Positions 4,597-14,834 of a stretch of 15,077 bases of DNA are shown here, in pieces. Position numbers and translations under genes: made by a program. Numbering within the stretch: the stretch's first letter is position 1; every line of letters starts with the position of its first letter. Under the pieces are notes generated by a model. It saw only the letters and a program-made list of their open reading frames with translations, was not told the origin of the DNA and made no database searches. Origin of the DNA: Deltaproteobacteria bacterium (GTDB lineage Bacteria > Bdellovibrionota_F > JAHFAK01); assembly GCA_023250585.1 (NCBI GenBank), contig JAHFAK010000003.1, positions 44,954 to 60,030 on the forward strand, in the 5' to 3' direction.

Positions 4597-5712
4597 ATGG
4601 TTTTAAAAATTAATTCAGATTATAACCGTTTTAAAGAAATTGTTCGTGGGCATATCAAGAAAGAGCTCCGTAAATATATGTCCACCACGGAAATTATCCA
4701 AAAAAAAGGTGACAATGTTGTTTCCATTCCCATGCCTTATATTGAATTGCCTCGTTTCAAATACGGCGATCAAGATGAAGGTGGTGTTGGACAAGGTGAA
4801 GGAGACGTTGGCACGAGCATTGGTAAAAAAGGCGAAGAAGGTTCAGAGAGCGAAGGAGGACGAGCAGGAAATTTGCCGGGCGAACATGCACAAGAAACAG
4901 AAGTAACCATTCACGAACTTGCTCAGATTCTCGGCGAAGAACTAGCATTGCCAAAAATCGAACCAAAAGGGAAAAAGAATATTGAATCGGAAAAAGATCG
5001 TTATACAAGTATTCATAAAGTAGGACCAGAAAGTCTTCGTCATTTTAAACGGACATTTAAAGAAGCTTTGAAACGGCAAATTGTCAGTGGCTATTATGAT
5101 TATAACGATCCTGTAATAATTCCCATTAAAGAAGATAAAAGGTTTCGTTCATGGAAACAAAAAAAAGTTCCAGAAAGTAATGCACTGATTATTTACATGA
5201 TGGACGTTTCTGGTTCAATGGGCGATGAGCAAAAAGAAATTGTTCGCATCGAAGCATTTTGGATAAACACCTGGCTGAAATCGCAATATCGAGGGTTGGA
5301 AGCAAAGTATATTGTTCATGATGCTGTGGCTCGAGAGGTAGATGAAGAAACATTTTTTCGTACTAAAGAAAGCGGTGGAACTATTATCTCTTCTGCATAT
5401 AAGTTATGTGTTAGCATTATTGAAAATGAATACAGCCCTGATAATTGGAATATCTATCCATTTCATTTTTCTGATGGAGATAATTGGTCGGGCGATGATA
5501 CCTCGGCGTGTATTGAGATTTTGAAAAAAAAGCTTATTCCTTATTCGAATATATTTTCGTATGGCCAGGTAGAAAGCCAATATGGCAGTGGCCAATTTAT
5601 TAAAGATTTAGAAGCATCATTTTCTGATGAAGAAAAAATGACACTTTCAAAGATTGAAAATAAAGAAGATATTTATCGATCGATAAAAGATTTTTTAAAA
5701 AAAGGAAAATAA
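4597..5712 (+). CDS. yeaH: DUF444 / YeaH-YhbH family protein with vWA-like domain
   Basis: A 371-residue member of the YeaH/YhbH (DUF444) family, whose members are usually about 390-430 residues. The N-terminal region, with its conserved basic helix and the [13 protein letters not shown] segment, is followed by a Gly/Glu-rich, probably disordered linker (about 50-100). The C-terminal half is von Willebrand A-like: MDVSGSM with the MIDAS-type D203-V-S-G-S207, then GGTIISSAY and FSDGDNW. Such domains bind a divalent metal and mediate protein contacts. In E. coli the yeaGH pair is co-transcribed and linked to sustained nitrogen starvation. Here it follows prkA after a strong palindrome and abuts spoVR with no spacer. 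I see no good ribosome-binding site before this ATG. Confidence 0.93.
5701..5706 (+). promoter_or_regulatory. Shine-Dalgarno site deciding the TTG start of spoVR
   Basis: AAAGGA lies inside the last codons of yeaH, 6 nt before TTG at 5713. This spacing supports the rare TTG start and suggests translational coupling. Confidence 0.55.
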
Positions 5713-7044
5713 TTGTTACCATCATACTTACAGTCAACGCGAGAAGAAGTTATTGAATATGCTCGTGCAGCTGGACTTGATTTCTTTGAAGTAATTTTCG
5801 AAATGCTCACCTCTGATGAAATGAGTCAAATTGCAAGTTACGGCGGATTTCCTACACGTTATCGTAATTGGCGTTTCGGTATGGAATATGATCGTTTTTC
5901 TAAAACCTATCAGTATGGCTTATCCCGAATCTATGAGCTCGTTATTAATAATGATCCCTGTTATGCATATTTACTTGAAAGTAATACTCCGCTCGATCAG
6001 AAACTTGTTATGGCTCATGTGTATGCCCATTCTGATTTTTTTAAAAACAATGCCCATTTTGGCCATACAAACCGTAAGATGGTTGATGAAATGGCAAACC
6101 ATGGAACACGAATATCAAACTATGTCGATCGTTATGGGCTTTCAGAAATTGAAGATTTTTTAGATTACAGTCATTCGATTGATAATCTCATTGATACGCA
6201 TTATCAAGGAACTGTAAGTAAGATAGACGAAAAAAGAGATATACTGAATTTTTTAGTCCATAATGCTGATCTTTCAGAATGGCAGCATGATATTCTTTCG
6301 ATTGTCCGTAAAGAAAGTTATTATTTTCTTCCACAAATGCAGACAAAGATTATGAACGAAGGATGGGCGACATTTTGGCATTCAAAAATTATGACTGAGA
6401 ATGCCCTTCGTGATGATGAAGTTATTGATTATGCACTCTCGCATTCAGGAACAGTTGCTACCTCGCCAGGACGAATTAATCCCTATAAAATGGGAGTGGA
6501 ACTCTTTCGTCATATTAAAGATCGATGGGATAAAGGAAAATTTGGCCAGGAATTTGAATCATGTGAAGATATCCAAGTGAGAAGTAAATGGGATAAACAT
6601 TTAGGTCTCGGCATTAAAAAGGTCTTTGATGTGCGAAAAATATACAACGATATCATGTTTCTTGATGAATTTTTAACTGAAGAATTCTGTGTCGAACAAA
6701 AGCTTTTTATTTATCAGCTTGATCAAAAAACAGGGCATTACATTATTAAGGATCGAGATCATCGTAAAGTAAAAGAGAAAATTCTTTTTTCTCTGACAAA
6801 TTTAGGAAATCCCATTATTCTCTTACGTGATGGTAATTACGAGGGAAAGGGTATTTTATATCTCTATCATAAACATATTGGTTCGGATTTAAAACTTGAT
6901 AAATCAAAAGATACACTCAAGGCTCTGCATCACATTTGGAAAAAATCCGTCTATCTTGAAACAAAAATACAAGATAAAGGCTTACTGCTTACTTTTGATG
7001 GTCGTGATCATCGGGAACATCCGATCAATTATAGCGAAGAGTAG
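5713..7044 (+). CDS. spoVR: SpoVR family protein
   Basis: A 443-residue SpoVR/YcgB homologue (Bacillus SpoVR about 468, E. coli YcgB about 510). Recognisable family blocks are the N-terminal AAGLDFFEVIFE, YGGFPTRYRNWRFGMEYD, the His-containing HVYAHSDFFKNN, MNEGWATFWHSKIM and RINPYKMGVELFRHIKDRW. Bacillus SpoVR is needed for normal spore cortex, but the family occurs in many non-sporulating bacteria beside PrkA and DUF444, and its biochemical activity is not established. The TTG start directly follows the yeaH TAA with a good Shine-Dalgarno, so the two are almost certainly co-translated. The 3' end overlaps the oppositely oriented TPR lipoprotein gene by 20 bp. Confidence 0.95.
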   Translation: MLPSYLQSTREEVIEYARAAGLDFFEVIFEMLTSDEMSQIASYGGFPTRYRNWRFGMEYDRFSKTYQYGLSRIYELVINNDPCYAYLLESNTPLDQKLVMAHVYAHSDFFKNNAHFGHTNRKMVDEMANHGTRISNYVDRYGLSEIEDFLDYSHSIDNLIDTHYQGTVSKIDEKRDILNFLVHNADLSEWQHDILSIVRKESYYFLPQMQTKIMNEGWATFWHSKIMTENALRDDEVIDYALSHSGTVATSPGRINPYKMGVELFRHIKDRWDKGKFGQEFESCEDIQVRSKWDKHLGLGIKKVFDVRKIYNDIMFLDEFLTEEFCVEQKLFIYQLDQKTGHYIIKDRDHRKVKEKILFSLTNLGNPIILLRDGNYEGKGILYLYHKHIGSDLKLDKSKDTLKALHHIWKKSVYLETKIQDKGLLLTFDGRDHREHPINYSEE

Positions 7045-8494
7045 AGACAAGTTTTTTCTTCAAATCTTTTCTTTCATCCAAATAAATTTGTTGTATCGTC
7101 TGATCTTCAGGTGCGAGAAAGAACCAACTATCTTTTTCTTGTACGAGAATGAAATATTTCTTTATAATGACAATTTTTTTCTCGTGTTCTTCATGTAGCA
7201 TTGCTTTTACCAACATATGGGTCTCGTCAATATATTCTATTTCATTGATGAGATAGAGAACGATTTGATGAGGCCAATGTTCTTTTATTTTTTTTTCAAA
7301 GACTATTTCATTGATTTGCTCTTTCGAAAAGTTGGATTGCATGTTATACAGATCAAAAAAATGTCTTTTTTGTAGAGATGTTATATAGGCGTCTATTTTT
7401 TGTTTTACTATTTTTTTATTATCAATTTTTTTTATCGAGTTAATTGTTTCTTCTGTACTTTGTTTTTGTTGAGTTTGAATTCTAGCAATGCTTTTAAAAA
7501 TAATTTGTGCATCACTAAATTTCATTTGTTTTTCGTATATGCCTGCAAGCACCTGTCTGAAACGAATATCAAGTGCATTATGTTGGATCATTTTATTACA
7601 CATATCTTGGGCTTTCTCGTATAAATCATTGTTTAGGTAGACGGTAACGAGCATATAATTATTTTCGGTAAAAAAAGGACTTATTGCTGAAGCTCTTTCT
7701 AATAATTCAAGAGCAGCCTTTTGATCTTTGATGATTTTGTGCTGCCCAAAATAATAATACTTAAATGCTAATGAATCTACCGTACCTCCGATTATCTCTT
7801 TTATGATCTCTCTTGTTGTTTCAATAGATTCATCTTTTGTTTGAATGGTCGAAATTACAGTAAGAGCTTCAGAGGGATTATTTTCGATAATAAAAATAGA
7901 AGCTAAGAGATTCTTTGCTGCTGTACTATTTGAAGAATTTTTTTCTTGTGTGTGTAAAGCTTTTTGAACATATTTTTCTGCATTTTGTATTTCTTCTAAG
8001 TTTAAAGAAATTTTTGCATGCAGCATATATACTTCAAATTCTATATCCTGATCATTATCAATAACTCTGTAATCCAATGATTGGTTTTTAATAAATGATT
8101 TTTTAAGTAGTATTTCTTCGGCATCATTTAAATACATGTCTGCTTCGTGCTCTTTCCCTTGTTCATAATTGACTCGAGCAAGCTCAATGTATGGATAAAT
8201 AAAATTTTTATCGAGATTTATTGCGTGTAGGTATTTGAAATGTGCATTATCTAAGTCACTTTGAAAATAATAGCTCGCTCCTAAAAAATAGTAAGCGTAA
8301 GGGTTTGATGGATTTTTTGTCAACGCTTTTTCGCATTCTATTTTTGCTTTTTCGAAATGATGACTTTTTAAATATGTAATAGCTTGAACGAGATGATGTG
8401 TTTCTTCATGAGAGCTTTTTGAAGTACATGAAAGAAGAAAAATACTCCATGATATAAGTATAATTTTTACAACTGAGCATTGGCCGCGGATCAC
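7025..8494 (-). CDS. TPR-repeat lipoprotein
   Basis: A 489-residue predicted lipoprotein. The signal peptide ends in the lipobox L-L-S-C with Cys23. Tetratricopeptide repeats follow: a clear block at about 35-125 (YLKSHHFEKAKIECEKAL, then AYYFLGASYYFQSDLDNAHF), a looser block at about 150-225, and another at about 250-345. The last 110 residues are not TPR and look like an alpha/beta module of unknown type. The role is probably scaffolding or assembly in the envelope. The GTG start overlaps the stop of the upstream cyclase gene as GTGA, so translation is probably coupled. The lipid attachment side and partners are unknown. The few basic residues in the signal n-region (R3, K10) leave slight doubt about the exact start. 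Confidence 0.82.
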   Translation of the reverse strand: MIRGQCSVVKIILISWSIFLLSCTSKSSHEETHHLVQAITYLKSHHFEKAKIECEKALTKNPSNPYAYYFLGASYYFQSDLDNAHFKYLHAINLDKNFIYPYIELARVNYEQGKEHEADMYLNDAEEILLKKSFIKNQSLDYRVIDNDQDIEFEVYMLHAKISLNLEEIQNAEKYVQKALHTQEKNSSNSTAAKNLLASIFIIENNPSEALTVISTIQTKDESIETTREIIKEIIGGTVDSLAFKYYYFGQHKIIKDQKAALELLERASAISPFFTENNYMLVTVYLNNDLYEKAQDMCNKMIQHNALDIRFRQVLAGIYEKQMKFSDAQIIFKSIARIQTQQKQSTEETINSIKKIDNKKIVKQKIDAYITSLQKRHFFDLYNMQSNFSKEQINEIVFEKKIKEHWPHQIVLYLINEIEYIDETHMLVKAMLHEEHEKKIVIIKKYFILVQEKDSWFFLAPEDQTIQQIYLDERKDLKKKLVSTLRYN

Positions 8495-10509
8495 TGAGCT
8501 CTCTGTTTTTTAAATCGAGTTAATGCAATTAAGGGAAAATAATCTTTATATCCACCATAACGCAGATAAAAATGTCGAGGGAATCCGGTCCCCGTATATT
8601 CACGTTCATCCCAGTTGCCTTCAGGATTTTGTGTAGTAATAAGATAGTTAATTCCTGAAAGTACCGCTGGATGATTGATGTAATTAGCAGCTATAAGACC
8701 CATTATAGCCCATGCGGTTTGGCTTGGTGTACTTTGTCCTTTACCCCAATATTCTTTTGAGTCATATGATTTACATGATTCACCCCAGCCGCCATTGGGA
8801 TTTTGTTTATTGATAAGCCATCGAGCAGCTTTTTTGAGCCACGGCTTACTCATGTTTTCGCCAAGAGCGGCAAGACCGCAAAGGGTGGCGGACGTTCCAT
8901 AGATGTAGTTAACTCCCCATCGTCCGTAAAAACAGCCTTCTTCTGCTTGGTCTTTTTGTAAGTATTCTATAGCACGGATGACTTCTGGACTATTTAATGT
9001 ATATCCATAGGGCGCTAATGCTTCAAGTACATGTCCGGTAATGTCAGGACAACTTGGATCTAAGAGACTTTTTAAGTCAGCAAAAGGAATTTTATTTAAT
9101 ATTTCACGTTTATTATCTTTATCAAAAGCCGCCCATCCTCCATCCTTATTTTGCATCGACAGTGTCCAATCAATCCCTCGTTTAATGGAGTCTTTCAGAT
9201 TAAACTGTGGTGCAACTTCGAGTCCATGAAGGGCAAGGAGAACCAAAGCCGTATCATCGATATCAGGATAAAAATCATTATTAAATTCAAATGACCATCC
9301 ACCGGGAAGACTGCGCTTATTTTTTACATACCAATCTCCATAGCGAAAACCCTGTTTTGTCATAAGCCAATTTGTTGCCTTTTGAAGAGCGTTTTTTTCT
9401 TTGAGTCCTTCAACTTCTTTTAAACCAGATAGAGTAATTGCCGTATCCCATACGGGTGAAACGGTCGAACGTAAATAGAGAGAATTTTTTTCTTCTACTA
9501 AAAAATGCTCAATGGCATGTATGCCTTTTTTGATTTCGGTGTCGGTATTTTTATATCCAAGGCATTTAAGAGCTAAACAAGAATTCATCATTGCTGGATA
9601 AATACCGCCCCAATGGCCTGAATAATCTTGATGCGACACAATCCATTCTTCTGCTTTTTTAAGTGCACGTTTACGTAATGGTTTTAATTTTGACTTTTCA
9701 TAGAAGTGAGTCAATCTATCGAGTTTAATAAAGAGATTTTCAATAGTTAAAAAACCCTGTTGAGGTTTGAAAAGATAATCTGATTTTTTTAGGTTTGGCA
9801 AAAAGAGCTCGGAGACCCCTTGTTCTTTGGGTATTTTACACAGTGGTCTAAATGCATAGAGTACCGTTAAAGGAATAATAACTGCGCGAGACCAACTCGA
9901 AAATTCATAAAAATTAAAGGGAGTGCCTTTAGGAAGTAAAATAAGTTCAGGAGGCATATTGGGTAAACATTCCCAGGGATATTCTCCAAACATTGCTAAA
10001 TTAATTTTGGTAAAAACCCGAGCGCTCGTGACTCCACCACGATCAAGAATAAACTTTCGCGCACGGATGAGAGCAGGGTGGTTTTTATTAAAACCGGCAA
10101 GTTTTAGTGCATGATATGCTTCAATTGTAGCGCTTAAATCACCTTCAGCTCCGTAATAGACACTAAAGCTTCCATCGCTGTTTTGAGTATCAATAATGTG
10201 CTGACATGCTTTTTCCTGATGGACTTTGTTAATTACACCCACAAGATACATAAACATTACATATTCAGACGTAAGGGTGATGTTATCGTAGAGATTAAAG
10301 TGCCAATATCCATCGGGGTGTTGCTCGTTTAAAAGATAGCGAGCAGAAGCCTGTATTGCCTTTTCAAGTTGTGCGGGTGAGACTTCAATATTGGAAGGTT
10401 GATTTTTTTCTACACTCGGAGTTTTAATTTTAAGAATCTCTTGATTTAATAACGTTTCCTGCATTTCTTGTTCTAATTCCAGTTCTGTATTTTGTAATCC
10501 ATTACTCAT
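8491..10509 (-). CDS. shc: Squalene-hopene cyclase (class II terpene cyclase)
   Basis: A 672-residue enzyme within the usual 630-670 range plus a short polar N-terminal tail. The acid motif DxDD is present as D416-I-D-D419, in YPDIDDTALVLLAL, the site that protonates the terminal double bond. Several QW-type repeats are visible: QNKDGGWAAFD, YGRWGVNYIYGT, QNPNGGWGE and NPEGNWDE, along with STPSQTAWA. Family knowledge: such enzymes cyclise squalene to hopene or diplopterol, the first committed step to hopanoids, membrane-bound on the cytoplasmic face. No other hopanoid gene is in the window. It is followed by a TPR lipoprotein with GTGA overlap and preceded by tRNA-Arg. A related triterpene cyclase with another product cannot be excluded from motifs alone. 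Confidence 0.95.
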   Translation of the reverse strand: MSNGLQNTELELEQEMQETLLNQEILKIKTPSVEKNQPSNIEVSPAQLEKAIQASARYLLNEQHPDGYWHFNLYDNITLTSEYVMFMYLVGVINKVHQEKACQHIIDTQNSDGSFSVYYGAEGDLSATIEAYHALKLAGFNKNHPALIRARKFILDRGGVTSARVFTKINLAMFGEYPWECLPNMPPELILLPKGTPFNFYEFSSWSRAVIIPLTVLYAFRPLCKIPKEQGVSELFLPNLKKSDYLFKPQQGFLTIENLFIKLDRLTHFYEKSKLKPLRKRALKKAEEWIVSHQDYSGHWGGIYPAMMNSCLALKCLGYKNTDTEIKKGIHAIEHFLVEEKNSLYLRSTVSPVWDTAITLSGLKEVEGLKEKNALQKATNWLMTKQGFRYGDWYVKNKRSLPGGWSFEFNNDFYPDIDDTALVLLALHGLEVAPQFNLKDSIKRGIDWTLSMQNKDGGWAAFDKDNKREILNKIPFADLKSLLDPSCPDITGHVLEALAPYGYTLNSPEVIRAIEYLQKDQAEEGCFYGRWGVNYIYGTSATLCGLAALGENMSKPWLKKAARWLINKQNPNGGWGESCKSYDSKEYWGKGQSTPSQTAWAIMGLIAANYINHPAVLSGINYLITTQNPEGNWDEREYTGTGFPRHFYLRYGGYKDYFPLIALTRFKKQRAQ

Positions 10510-10512
10510 AAT

Positions 10513-10529
10513 AAAATTGTCACAATTTT
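10513..10529. promoter_or_regulatory. Perfect 17-bp palindrome at the shc start region
   Basis: AAAATTGT (10513-10520), one central C, then ACAATTTT (10522-10529) form a perfect dyad between the putative -10 box and the shc start codon. A repressor binding there would sit over the transcription start. It is too compact for an RNA hairpin, so a protein-binding operator is the natural reading. Confidence 0.4.
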
Positions 10530-10555
10530 TTAAAGGAAAAAAAATCTATTTTCAA
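10527..10555 (-). promoter_or_regulatory. Possible sigma-70 promoter of shc
   Basis: On the minus strand TTGAAA (10555-10550), a 17-nt spacer and TAAAAA (10532-10527) give 5/6 and 4/6 matches with ideal spacing. The leader would be short (about 10-15 nt) and I see no Shine-Dalgarno in it. Confidence 0.4.
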
Positions 10556-10758: not shown

Positions 10759-11148
10759 TTATACTTGATGAATACTAATTACTTGTTTTTGAGGATGTAT
10801 ACACCAATCAAATTTTTCAAGAAAATTCATGCCAAGAAGTCCTTCAATACCTTGTTCTTGGAGATCATGACAACGTACTTCAATTCTTGAGAATTTATTT
10901 CCCAATGTTTCAAGAGATTCAAGTATGAGACGATATCCTTGTTCTTTTCCGAGAACAGAAGAGACAGTCGATTGACCAATGCCATCACGAGCTGAATAAC
11001 CAATAGCTTCTGCGAGGCTATGATCTATAATGGTAAATGAAGCTCCTGTATCTAGTATAAATCTTCCCATAGTTTTATATTTTTTCCCATAAATGATAAC
11101 AGGGAGAGTAATAAGGCGTTTATCTAGTTTGTATGGGAAATCTGCCAT
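10759..11148 (-). CDS. Retropepsin-like aspartyl protease
   Basis: A 129-residue single-domain protein with the aspartic-protease signature FILDTGAS (catalytic D33-T-G) and, near the C-terminus, the hydrophobic-hydrophobic-Gly motif G103-L-L-G106 (EGLLGMNFL). That layout fits a retropepsin-like protease, which would work as a homodimer supplying one Asp per subunit. There is no signal peptide, so it should be cytoplasmic. Its ATG lies inside the end of the preceding small gene (25-bp overlap) without a Shine-Dalgarno, which suggests translational coupling. The substrate is unknown. It ends 67 nt before tRNA-Arg. Confidence 0.8.
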   Translation of the reverse strand: MADFPYKLDKRLITLPVIIYGKKYKTMGRFILDTGASFTIIDHSLAEAIGYSARDGIGQSTVSSVLGKEQGYRLILESLETLGNKFSRIEVRCHDLQEQGIEGLLGMNFLEKFDWCIHPQKQVISIHQV

Positions 11149-11387
11149 AAAAGAGGAATTTCAGGATTTTTTATTAGTTCTCCAGTATAAAGAAGTGCCA
11201 TATCTTTATATCTAGGAATTACACGGCCAACTGCTTTGTGAAATTTTTTTCTATCAGGATGATGTACTACAAGAGTTCCTTCGATGTCTTCAGCACCTTT
11301 TTGAGTATAGTCGACAAGTGCTACCCATTCATCTGGAAAGTTTTTTACTAATTCTTGCCAGGTAATTTTATGTTCTTTAGCCTTCAT
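11124..11387 (-). CDS. Small DUF5678-like protein paired with the aspartyl protease
   Basis: An 87-residue soluble protein with no signal peptide or membrane segment. The pattern ITWQELVKNFPDEWVALVDY, then GTLVVHHPDRKKFHKAVG and LLYTGELIKNPEIPLLW, resembles small proteins (DUF5678-like) that I recall being encoded next to retropepsin-like proteases in other bacteria. That pairing is from memory, not a search. It lies 37 nt downstream of mlaD and overlaps the protease by 25 bp, so all three may share a transcript. Possible roles are partner, substrate or regulator of the protease; none is shown by the sequence. Confidence 0.65.
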   Translation of the reverse strand: MKAKEHKITWQELVKNFPDEWVALVDYTQKGAEDIEGTLVVHHPDRKKFHKAVGRVIPRYKDMALLYTGELIKNPEIPLLWQISHTN

Positions 11388-11424: not shown

Positions 11425-12366
11425 TTAATGCGACAAGAAGTTAACCTTAATTCCTTCTTTTTTCAGGAATTCTTTTGTTTCATCGATGAGTTCTCTGAGG
11501 TCATTATAATCAATGGCTTCAAGCTTCTTCAACGTAACTCGCAGACGTTTCGCGGTTTCATTGAAGTTCTGTTGATTTTCAGGAAGGTTATCCAGGACGA
11601 CTTTCAGTGATGCAATTAAGTCATCGATGTCTTCTTTTAATTTTGGATAATCCTTATTTACTGCTGCCATAAGCTCTGCGGTTTTTGGGATTAATGCCGT
11701 TTTATTCAGACTTTTCGATGATTGTTCTAAATTGGAAATCAATTGATGAAGATTTCCTGAATTATTGTCGATGAGAGAATTAATTCTTTCCATTGTAGCT
11801 TGGCTTGTAGTAAGGGTTTGATTAAGCGTATCCAGTGAATTATTTACCGTTACCTTCATACCCGTTAGATCTTTCAATATAGTTTTAATATTTTGTACGT
11901 CTTCCTTACGAAGAACTTTTACAAGATCCCCGAGAATTGTGACAAGATCTTGAATATCGATGGGAATCATCGCATTTTCTATAGTATCTCCATTAGCGAG
12001 ATAGGGAGATCCTCCGTTTGGCGAGGTAATCTCTAAATATTTTTCACCAAGAATGCTCTTTGGTTTTATTTCTGCACGACATTTTTTTGATAAACTGACA
12101 TTGGAATCAATGACAAGTGTAAGTAATACTCCATCATGTTCAATTTCCATGGTTTCTACTTTGCCAGCTTTTACTCCATACACATATACATCAGAATTTG
12201 GTACGAGACCAACGACGGTTGGGAAATGAACCTGGAGCCTATACGTATCTTTGAGAAATGAAAAAGCTCCCATTTTAAAAGTAAGTATAATAAATGAGCA
12301 AAGAGCAATGATAAAAAAGAACGCTAAAAGAAGTTCTTTTTTATACTTTTTGAAATAGTTATTCAT
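11425..12366 (-). CDS. mlaD: MCE-domain lipid-transport protein (MlaD family), long form
   Basis: A 313-residue protein with one N-terminal membrane anchor (about 12-31) after a basic stretch and a single MCE domain (about 42-130, including VVGLVPNSDVYVYGVKAGKV and ILGEKYLEI). A long helical tail (about 140-310), rich in Leu/Asn/Lys heptads, follows. E. coli MlaD is only about 183 residues. The long tail resembles MCE proteins whose C-terminal helices form a tube across the periplasm. Family role: a hexameric ring on the inner membrane that passes phospholipids to or from the outer membrane. It starts 11 nt after the mlaF stop, so it belongs to the same operon. No mlaC or mlaB follows. Confidence 0.92.
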   Translation of the reverse strand: MNNYFKKYKKELLLAFFFIIALCSFIILTFKMGAFSFLKDTYRLQVHFPTVVGLVPNSDVYVYGVKAGKVETMEIEHDGVLLTLVIDSNVSLSKKCRAEIKPKSILGEKYLEITSPNGGSPYLANGDTIENAMIPIDIQDLVTILGDLVKVLRKEDVQNIKTILKDLTGMKVTVNNSLDTLNQTLTTSQATMERINSLIDNNSGNLHQLISNLEQSSKSLNKTALIPKTAELMAAVNKDYPKLKEDIDDLIASLKVVLDNLPENQQNFNETAKRLRVTLKKLEAIDYNDLRELIDETKEFLKKEGIKVNFLSH

Positions 12367-12377
12367 AAATAATACGC

Positions 12378-13115
12378 CTATCCTATCTTTTTTCTATTGC
12401 GTTGTAAAAACTTTTGTACAATTTCGTTGTTACTTTGAAAAAAATCATGTTTTGTCGCAAATTCTATAAGTTCGGTATTATAGATCATTCCAATATAGTC
12501 GGCGACATTATGTGTTCCAACAATATCATGGCTGATAATAATAAACGTGACTCCAAGCTTTTCTTTAGTCTTAATAATTAATTCATCAATTATATCTGAC
12601 ATCATTGGGTCAAGGCCACTTAAGGGTTCATCGAAAAGGACAATTTCTGGATCGAGAATAATTGCTCGCGCGAGACTTACGCGTTTTCGCATACCTCCCG
12701 AAAGTTCTCCTGGTAATTTTTGCTCAATACCTGAAAGTCCGACCATTTCAAGTTTTTCTTTTACTAATTTTTCTATCTGGAATTCACGAAATTTGGTGTG
12801 ACGCCTGAGAGGGAAAGCAATATTTTCATAGACATTAAGGGAATCAAAAAGTGCGCCATCTTGAAACATCATACCGAACTTTTTTCTTTGTTCAAAAAGC
12901 TGATCTTGATTCAAAGCGGTAATTGATTTTCCATTAAGAAATATTTCTCCTTTGTCAGGCTTCATCAAACCAATGAGGAGTTTAATAAAAACACTTTTTC
13001 CCACACCTGAAGGACCGACGATAACCGTTGTCTTATTTTTTTCGATTTTACAATTTATATTGTGTAAAACCGGTTTTCCGTTAAAGCTTTTATGTATATT
13101 TCGGTATTCAATCAT
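12378..13115 (-). CDS. mlaF: MlaF-family ABC transporter ATPase
   Basis: A 245-residue ATPase starting at MIEYRNIHKSF. All ABC motifs are intact: Walker A GPSGVGKS (34-41), Q-loop Q85 in MMFQDGALFDS, signature LSGGMRKR (138-145), Walker B IVLFDE (158-163) and switch H196 in IIISHD. MMFQDGALFDSL is typical of the MlaF/Mkl branch that powers lipid transport by MlaE permeases. The reading frame stays open 36 nt further upstream to a TTG, but those residues (LRFARNDN-type) are a translated dispersed repeat, so I place the start at the internal ATG. The repeat ends 10 nt before this ATG, leaving no Shine-Dalgarno visible. Confidence 0.95.
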   Translation of the reverse strand: MIEYRNIHKSFNGKPVLHNINCKIEKNKTTVIVGPSGVGKSVFIKLLIGLMKPDKGEIFLNGKSITALNQDQLFEQRKKFGMMFQDGALFDSLNVYENIAFPLRRHTKFREFQIEKLVKEKLEMVGLSGIEQKLPGELSGGMRKRVSLARAIILDPEIVLFDEPLSGLDPMMSDIIDELIIKTKEKLGVTFIIISHDIVGTHNVADYIGMIYNTELIEFATKHDFFQSNNEIVQKFLQRNRKKIG

Positions 13116-13125
13116 AAGTACACAA

Positions 13126-13194
13126 TTGTCATTGCGAGCAAAGCGAAGCAATCTAATAATGTTAAAGATTGCTTCGCTTTGCTCGCAATGACAA
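13126..13194. repeat. Perfect 29-bp inverted repeat between mlaE and mlaF
   Basis: Arms 13126-13154 and 13166-13194 (core GTCATTGCGAGCAAAGCG) are exact reverse complements with an 11-nt loop. This is a dispersed-repeat type known from many bacteria, which translates into the spurious LRFARNDN string. It lies 7 nt past the mlaE stop and 10 nt before the mlaF start, filling nearly the whole junction. In mRNA it would be a strong hairpin. Confidence 0.9.
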
Positions 13195-13201
13195 ATATAA
13201 T

Positions 13202-13936
13202 TTAATCATAAAATATTGCCGTTACAAAATAATTTAAGACAATACAAAGTACGCATCCCACAACAACAGCTCGATTCGTTGCTCGTCCAACGCCTTCAGG
13301 CCCTGGATCAGAGTGAAACCCACAATAGCATGATACCATGCAAATCGTCAGCCCAAAGGTCAAGCCTTTAATAAGGCCAATGAGCACATCGGAAAGAGAA
13401 GTAAATGTTCGTATATTATCCAAAAAAATTCCGCTTCCGACATTGAGTTGGTAGATTGCTACATAGTAACCAGAGAAAATGCAAAAGAAATTTGCAATGA
13501 GTACCAAAAGGGGAAGGGTAATGATAATTGCAATAAATTTTGGAATAACAAGATACGCGATGGGATCAACGCTCATTACTTCCAGAGCATCGATTTGTTC
13601 TTTGATTTTCATGGTCGCAAGATTTGCCGCAATAGCTGAGCCTGCTTTTGCTCCCACCATGGCTCCTGCAACAATAGGTGCCATTTCACGGAGGCCTGCG
13701 AGTGAGACAAAAATACCAACGAGATTTTGTCCGCCAATACTTTTAAATGCATTATAGCCTTGAAGCGCCAAGTTGGTTCCAATAAAAGCAGAAACAAAAA
13801 TAACAATGGGGAGAGATTCTACACCAATCATAAATGATTCATTGAGAATATTTTTATATTCAACTTTTCCTCGGCTCGAGCGTACGATTTTTTTAAGGAA
13901 AATTCCAAACTGCTTTATTTCTTGAATCGTTTTCAT
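13202..13936 (-). CDS. mlaE: MlaE-family ABC transporter permease (second of two)
   Basis: A 244-residue integral membrane protein of the MlaE/YrbE permease family. The hallmarks are LALQGYNAFKSIGG, LREMAPIVAGAMVGAKAGSA and KIKEQIDALEVMSVDPIAYLV, with five or so hydrophobic segments. It works with MlaF and MlaD to move phospholipids through the inner membrane. The start is placed at the ATG of MKTIQEIKQF because AGAAGG (13949-13944) lies 7 nt upstream. The longer frame to 14032 would add VIPAKAGIQ and RLRGDD-type residues, which are a translated dispersed repeat. A paralogous permease lies just upstream. Confidence 0.94.
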   Translation of the reverse strand: MKTIQEIKQFGIFLKKIVRSSRGKVEYKNILNESFMIGVESLPIVIFVSAFIGTNLALQGYNAFKSIGGQNLVGIFVSLAGLREMAPIVAGAMVGAKAGSAIAANLATMKIKEQIDALEVMSVDPIAYLVIPKFIAIIITLPLLVLIANFFCIFSGYYVAIYQLNVGSGIFLDNIRTFTSLSDVLIGLIKGLTFGLTICMVSCYCGFHSDPGPEGVGRATNRAVVVGCVLCIVLNYFVTAIFYD

Positions 13937-13943
13937 AGTTAAG

Positions 13944-13949
13944 CCTTCT
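13944..13949 (-). promoter_or_regulatory. Shine-Dalgarno site deciding the mlaE start
   Basis: AGAAGG on the minus strand, 7 nt before the ATG at 13936 and just outside the upstream repeat. It supports the trimmed start over the longer frame. Confidence 0.65.
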
Positions 13950-13954
13950 CGTTT

Positions 13955-14026
13955 GTCATCCCCGCGAAGGCGGGGATCCAGTCTTATTAAACTTTGTTTC
14001 TGGATTCCCGCCTTCGCGGGAATGAC
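13955..14026. repeat. REP-type palindrome doublet between the two permease genes
   Basis: Arms 13955-13981 and 14000-14026 are inverted copies (25 of 27 positions) around an 18-nt loop. Each arm is also a perfect 8-bp hairpin with a 4-nt loop: ATCCCCGC/GCGGGGAT and ATTCCCGC/GCGGGAAT. The two differences are again compensatory inside each hairpin. The right unit fits the ATTCCC-N8-GGGAAT pattern known as dRS3 in Neisseria. It is translated as VIPAKAGIQ-type residues in the false extension of mlaE. Confidence 0.88.
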
Positions 14027-14072
14027 ATTCATTTGTAGTTTCTTCCTTCACAATTCTTAGAAGACTCCATTT

Positions 14073-14834
14073 TTACAAGTGCACAATATTAAAAAAGAGT
14101 GTTGTTAAAAAATAATTTAAAAATATAAAGGCTAAAATTGAATTTACAACCGAGCGATTGACTGCAATACCAACCTCGCGGGCACCACCACTAACATTAT
14201 ATCCATAGAAACATGATAGGGATGCGATAATGAGACCATAGAGAAATGCTTTGAGGGTACAAAACGCCGGGTCAAACCAACTCGCAAATATAAAGAGATT
14301 ATCCCAATAAACGCCGCTTGATTGGCCTTTCATAAGAACGGCAACCAAATATCCGCCAAGAATACCACACATAAGCGAAATCATGTTGACGATAACACAG
14401 GCGAGTGAGAGGCCAAGAATCTTTGGAATAATGAGATATTTCAAGGAAGGTATACTCATTACTTCAAGCGCGTCTATTTCTTCTTTTACGCGCATGGCTC
14501 CAAGTTCGGCTGAGATGCTACTTCCTGCCTGTGCGGCAATCATAATGGAAGTAACGCCAGGTGAAAGTTCTCGAACAAGAGAAATAAACGTGAGTCCTGA
14601 AACCATATATTCGGTGCCAAATATTTTGAAAATATTAAAGCCTTGTAAGGCAACAACCATCCCAAATGGAGTAAGAACAATTGCAACGGGAAGTAAACAC
14701 TGAAGGGTAATTGTCGATGTTTCATGGAGAATTTCTGTGAGATACAGAGGCTTTTTGGAAAGTGTTTTAAAAGAATCGAGTAGAAAAACATGAAATGATC
14801 CAATTCGCCTTAAGATGTCTAATATAAACTGCAT
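14073..14834 (-). CDS. mlaE: MlaE-family ABC transporter permease (first of two)
   Basis: A 253-residue paralogue of the next gene. The family core is present: ALQGFNIFKIFG, LVRELSPGVTSIMIAAQAGSS and RVKEEIDALEVMSIPSLKYLI, with several membrane segments. It is clearly diverged from its neighbour (RELSPG against REMAPI, AAQAGSS against GAKAGSA), so this is an old duplication and not an assembly artefact. Paired YrbE permeases occur in mycobacterial mce loci, suggesting a heterodimeric channel here. I chose the ATG (MQFILDILRR); a TTG seven codons upstream (14855) is an equally open start, and neither has a good Shine-Dalgarno. It lies 57 nt after tRNA-Gly with no clear promoter between, so it may be read through from the tRNA. 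Confidence 0.9.
   Translation of the reverse strand: MQFILDILRRIGSFHVFLLDSFKTLSKKPLYLTEILHETSTITLQCLLPVAIVLTPFGMVVALQGFNIFKIFGTEYMVSGLTFISLVRELSPGVTSIMIAAQAGSSISAELGAMRVKEEIDALEVMSIPSLKYLIIPKILGLSLACVIVNMISLMCGILGGYLVAVLMKGQSSGVYWDNLFIFASWFDPAFCTLKAFLYGLIIASLSCFYGYNVSGGAREVGIAVNRSVVNSILAFIFLNYFLTTLFFNIVHL

Follow-up and report, generated by a model that had tools for sequence, protein, structure and literature searches.

The window (the whole stretch of 15,077 nucleotides analysed here) encodes on its minus strand, between positions 11425 and 14834, two MlaE permeases, one MlaF ATPase and one MCE protein. The first permease gene, mlaE1 (E1; 14073..14834, 253 aa), is YrbEA-like and is followed by mlaE2 (E2; 13202..13936, 244 aa), and both products match the MlaE/YrbE permease family PF02405 (E=7e-64 and E=1.8e-70, respectively). 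For E2, position 13936 is the most likely start; the longer frame from 14032 crosses a dispersed palindromic repeat. The remaining two genes encode an mlaF/mkl-type ATPase (12378..13118, 246 aa; PF00005, E=1.2e-32) and an MlaD-like protein of 313 aa (11425..12366; PF02470, E=4.5e-16) that combines a transmembrane (TM) helix, one MCE domain and a long tail. These domain matches agree with a preliminary description of the locus, which had listed two permeases, one ATPase and one MCE protein and had found neither MlaB nor MlaC in the operon. Two different palindromic repeats occupy the gaps between mlaF and mlaE2 (13105-13215) and between mlaE2 and mlaE1 (13954-14027); when up to two mismatches were allowed, the repeat arms gave 19 and 31 matches in the genome and the backward control gave 0. 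Downstream, on the same strand, lie a squalene-hopene cyclase, a small aspartyl protease and an 87-aa frame (8491-10509, 10759-11387). A hopanoid link through the cyclase is unsupported, as none of the eight neighbouring genes in the window recurs near the operon in relatives.

The whole genome (2.24 Mb, 96.7% complete) was searched by domain profiles, which returned four MlaE and three MCE proteins in all, with two single-permease MCE operons in addition to that of the window. The first of these, on contig C125 (L010), encodes a 506-aa MlaD (1115-2635) with a single MlaE and MlaF, and the last ~190 residues of this MlaD appear strand-rich by eye. The second, on contig C159 (L011), encodes one MlaE, a 312-aa MCE protein and a 209-aa ATPase (9904-10533) that matches PF00005, yet by eye seems to have neither a Walker A nor a signature motif and is possibly a catalytically dead subunit. 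A separate mlaA/mlaB set was sought and not found: the whole genome yielded no match to MlaA (PF04333) or to the MlaB-type STAS_2 domain (PF13466), and its sole PF01740 STAS domain lies within a 575-aa frame, so that this protein is not a small MlaB-like one. Two MlaC-domain proteins (PF05494) were detected on contigs C27 and C38, unlinked to the window operon. The C27 protein (L012, 6196-8418) is 740 aa long and carries its MlaC domain C-terminally (residues 593-728), with no other Pfam match. Neither MlaC lies near an MCE gene in the stretch examined, with C38 cut off immediately upstream of its MlaC. The genome-wide search for mlaA, mlaB and mlaC that the preliminary description had proposed therefore finds the first two missing and MlaC-domain proteins present.

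Divergence, distribution and phylogeny of the permease pair

E1 and E2 share 35% identity over 246 aa and form separate conserved clades, which rules out a recent tandem duplication. At the position equivalent to R111 of E. coli MlaE (numbering taken from the alignment), E1 proteins carry Gln in 22 of 22 cases and E2 proteins Lys or Arg in 18 of 18, with Arg or Lys in single MlaE, which suggests that E1 and E2 are not interchangeable copies. Two prolines, P49 and P56, are near-invariant in E1 and also occur in some YrbEA; neither is the most frequent residue in E2, YrbEB or single MlaE. Both window permeases retain the R97/E98/K205 cluster known from E. coli MlaE (PMC7790496) and have Asn in place of D250.

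An E1 alignment used as query against named genomes retrieved 80 loci, and among these, adjacent E1 and E2 genes occur in metagenome-assembled genomes (MAGs) titled Deltaproteobacteria, Sericytochromatia/Cyanobacteria, Nitrospinota, Planctomycetota and Dadabacteria. An ATPase gene and, in most cases, a single MCE gene accompany the pair, commonly in the order E1-E2-F-MCE, and this exact order recurs at a locus that was not used in the query (L140). Departures from it include a divergent MCE gene (L067, L072 and L074), two ATPases with two MCE genes (L073), the absence of an MCE gene within the locus (L065) and E1 with no E2 nearby (L061, L062, L066 and L071). At L062 and L066, from two Sericytochromatia MAGs (~4700-10000), the E1-type permease stands alone, with no E2, ATPase or MCE gene, between a preceding secretin/pilus-protein-like gene and a following TPR-like gene. 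No partner swapping was seen, and the E1 and E2 distance matrices correlate (r=0.87, Mantel p 0.0005, 17 pairs), a value to which shared species history contributes. In a sample of 290 genomes, in which most families were represented by one or two, about six gave an E1-type match clearly above the MlaE score continuum, five of them already in the query alignment, and the two-permease system is therefore rare. This survey, proposed in the preliminary description, accordingly finds the two permeases kept together in several phyla, although seldom encountered.

ML trees of the permeases were computed with 101 rows and then with 65 rows, long branches having been removed. In the 101-row tree, one branch (98/96) places E1, E2, YrbEA and YrbEB together on one side, apart from single MlaE; a second family of tandem permeases also falls outside that side. 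E1 groups with YrbEA in both trees (96/96 with 101 rows and 99/99 with 65), and the 65-row tree recovers an E2 clade and a YrbEB clade, each at 100/99. An E2+YrbEB clade is absent from the trees and is not rejected by the AU test (p 0.46, 0.37). In the ATPase tree, thirteen ATPases of two-permease operons cluster with a support of 85, and the window's ATPase groups with those of other two-permease operons. The MCE tree, obtained by a quick method with SH-aLRT support only, unites 16 two-permease MCE proteins in one group (83) adjoining the actinobacterial Mce proteins (93, a group that includes one very long-branched single-permease row), with a joint support of 98. Since E1 groups with YrbEA (99/99) and the MCE protein lies beside actinobacterial Mce (98), the window operon is, as judged from these trees, related to the mycobacterial Mce system, but belongs to a diderm bacterium and has a single MCE gene in place of six. 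The same groupings bear out the comparison with YrbEA/YrbEB made in the preliminary description.

We favour, without holding it proven, a single permease duplication common to the diderm E1/E2 and to YrbEA/YrbEB. Alternatively, the diderm duplication could have been independent of the actinobacterial one within the same architecture, in which case the likeness to mycobacteria would be convergent. The AU test leaves standing both YrbEA+YrbEB as one clade, corresponding to an independent actinobacterial duplication (p 0.42, 0.28), and diderm E1+E2 as one clade (p 0.095); moreover, since the second tandem family branches elsewhere in the tree, permease duplication has occurred more than once. These points are countered by the E1+YrbEA support in both trees, the occurrence of P49 and P56 in some YrbEA, the agreement of the E1-E2 gene order with that of YrbEA-YrbEB, and the separately built MCE tree, which also joins both groups. 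We consider an independent origin unlikely, although it retains a real share of the probability, and prefer the common duplication. A single origin for all tandem MlaE pairs is unsupported, given that the Myxococcota/Bdellovibrionota pairs branch elsewhere; most loci of this second family (L119, L122-L124, L136 and L137) have the pair flanked by ATPase genes on both sides.

The MCE protein and its C-terminal motif

In the AlphaFold2 monomer model, the 313-aa protein comprises one TM helix, an MCE domain of high-pLDDT strands (residues 41-133; 11968..12246) and a low-confidence tail (~138-313) that is predicted to be helical to residue ~303. The helical part, residues 138-303 (11458..11955), has a pLDDT mostly below 50 and is the segment that we propose as a needle; its extent fits the tail of about 170 helical residues that had been read from the sequence in the preliminary description. 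Against the Mtu_fam_mce profile (TIGR00996), the window protein scored 131 bits, below the cut-off of 140.5, and the genome's other two MCE proteins scored 98.7 and 69.9 bits. Actinobacterial operons for comparison were obtained through a plasmid search. A profile comparison with actinobacterial Mce proteins gave E=2.5e-33 and spanned the ring and most of the tail. The best four Foldseek matches were the B, F and C chains of Mce1; because the rmsd is large, these matches reflect a common order of elements and not a common rigid shape.

The tail ends in a conserved, strand-like E-G-[IV] motif (FLKKEGIKVNFLSH, residues 300-313; 11428..11469), which might contribute one strand to a six-stranded cap. 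G305, within this motif, is the sole invariant residue beyond the MCE domain among 16 relatives. The pattern [FLIYM][FLIMV][RKQHE]..EG[IVLM].[VIFLY], with D, Q, H or N allowed for E, was found in 13 of 16 two-permease MCE proteins, in 1 of 9 of the other tandem type and in none of 45 actinobacterial or 16 single-permease proteins, several of the latter ending early at locus ends. The pattern was written after viewing the two-permease sequences, so the information in this count lies in its absence from the remaining groups. Two further details concern individual loci: L063 has the motif though the script missed it, and L140 carries the variant EKRGIKARV. The AlphaFold2 monomer model leaves the C-terminal strand unformed, and a C-terminal barrel within the MCE protein was discarded as a candidate, the model containing none.

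Proposed transporter and comparison with known systems

Taken together, we think it probable that the operon encodes an Mce-type ABC lipid transporter. E1 and E2 would pair as a single permease, a heterodimer seated on an ATPase homodimer encoded by the one mlaF gene, and six copies of the single MCE protein would form a ring on the permease. The helical MCE tails would then assemble into a hydrophobic needle spanning the periplasm. Near the outer membrane, a small six-stranded barrel, built from the last strand of every chain, would close this needle. A hydrophobic substrate (a phospholipid, fatty acid or other membrane lipid) would pass through this tube, most likely inward, the analogy with Mce1 favouring import over export. 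Since the substrate would move through the tube, a soluble MlaC shuttle would be unneeded. The template for this proposal is Mce1, a ten-subunit complex of a YrbE1A/B heterodimer, an MceG homodimer, an MCE ring and a helical needle that extends ~225 Å into the periplasm and ends in a six-stranded barrel, one strand per chain (PMC9882608). By homology with the solved YrbE1A/YrbE1B heterodimer (PMC9882608), an E1/E2 heterodimer is likely. Of this picture, the gene content, the conservation of the pair, the kinship with actinobacterial Mce and the C-terminal motif are observed, and the heterodimer, homohexamer, needle, cap, direction and substrate are inferences.

Further points in favour are the separate E1 and E2 clades conserved across several phyla, their correlated distances, the differing residues at the R111 position, the presence of one ATPase gene for both permeases, the closeness of the MCE protein to actinobacterial Mce, the absence of MlaA and MlaB from the genome and the terminal strand-like motif of the MCE tail, which recalls the Mce1 portal. 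If fully helical, the 166-residue tail would reach at most ~250 Å (1.5 Å per residue), in principle enough to cross a periplasm. Two MlaD proteins that lack a barrel have been predicted to carry small six-stranded caps (PMC10665443). On the other side stand the low pLDDT of the tail, the unformed C-terminal strand of the monomer model, the few loci with E1 and no nearby E2, and the two MlaC-domain proteins of the genome, which make a shuttle possible. The preliminary description had proposed a periplasm-spanning tube as the explanation for the missing MlaC. The tube itself is plausible and has been argued before for other long MlaD proteins, but it is not needed as a reason: across bacteria, 85% of MlaD homologues are of the long kind, with MlaABC as the exception (PMC10665443), so the missing MlaC calls for no special explanation.

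The two permeases could instead form E1-E1 and E2-E2 homodimers, that is, two transporters with different substrates that use a common ATPase and MCE protein. E. coli MlaE is a homodimer (PMC7790496), and the conserved residues of E1 and E2 clearly differ; nevertheless, the pair is kept across phyla alongside a single MCE gene and, in most cases, one ATPase gene, and a heterodimer is known from the closest characterised relatives (PMC9882608), making homodimers improbable. Slightly less probable still is that one or both of the MlaC-domain proteins encoded on other contigs serve as a shuttle for the window system, given a genome devoid of MlaA and MlaB-type STAS_2, MlaC genes with no MCE gene nearby in the stretch examined, and the long tail of the window MCE protein.

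The components of the proposed heterodimer-and-needle machine are individually known, and the frequent occurrence of long MCE proteins in the absence of MlaC has been established; the combination of two permeases with one MCE protein is less familiar. In the literature searched, which left most subscription journals and all bioRxiv preprints outside its scope, no diderm system with two permeases and one MCE protein was described as an Mce relative. The nearest statement is that of Casali and Riley, who noted that the DUF140 or ATPase gene is sometimes duplicated in Gram-negatives (PMC1810536). If our reading is correct, diderm bacteria contain a relative of the tuberculosis-type Mce importer with a much simpler make-up, in which the role of the permease heterodimer is separated from that of six different MCE subunits, two features that are coupled in mycobacteria. 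It would also suggest in what order of steps the Mce machine evolved. Tentatively, and with the chances close to balanced, the diderm E1-E2-F-MCE arrangement may represent the state ancestral to actinobacterial Mce, the permease pair having appeared first, atop a homohexameric trans-envelope MCE needle, and the six different MCE genes having arisen later, in actinobacteria; the operon of this uncultured two-membraned bacterium may then show the Mce machine before its parts multiplied.

Among known systems, actinobacterial Mce (YrbEA, YrbEB, MceA-F and MceG/Mkl) likewise has a tandem pair of diverged permeases, ordered as in the window, together with an Mkl-type ATPase and MCE proteins with a long helical tail and a terminal strand. 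It differs in having six MCE genes, compared with one in the window operon and three MCE domains in the whole genome, and in the long C-terminal extension of MceG, which the window ATPase lacks; the window system, unlike actinobacterial Mce, belongs to diderm bacteria, and its MCE protein falls short of the TIGR00996 cut-off. The MlaEFD system of Veillonella parvula also pairs a long helical MCE tail with an operon lacking MlaA and MlaC, and has been proposed as a trans-envelope bridge (PMC10665443), but it has only one MlaE, and each chain carries a C-terminal barrel of ten strands, in contrast to two MlaE and one proposed terminal strand per chain in the window. Of MlaA, MlaB and MlaC, which the Veillonella type lacks, none is encoded in the window operon, and the genome has neither MlaA nor STAS_2 yet carries two MlaC-domain proteins elsewhere. 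Within this genome, the C125 operon looks nearer to the Veillonella type, the tail of its 506-aa MlaD resembling the Veillonella MlaD barrel by eye. Proteobacterial Mla (MlaFEDB, MlaC and MlaA) shares an MlaE-family permease, an MlaF-type ATPase and an MCE ring protein with the window system, but has a single MlaE, a short MlaD (~180 aa, compared with 313 aa here) and the mlaB, mlaC and MlaA components that the window operon lacks, MlaC domains occurring in this genome only on C27 and C38. Finally, the second tandem-MlaE family (F-E-E-F-MCE) of Myxococcota/Bdellovibrionota likewise has tandem, diverged MlaE permeases, with MCE proteins of ~320-360 aa; it forms a separate branch in both the permease and the MCE trees, often has two ATPases, and its MCE proteins mostly end in an HPWK-like motif, as opposed to the EG-strand of the two-permease type described here.
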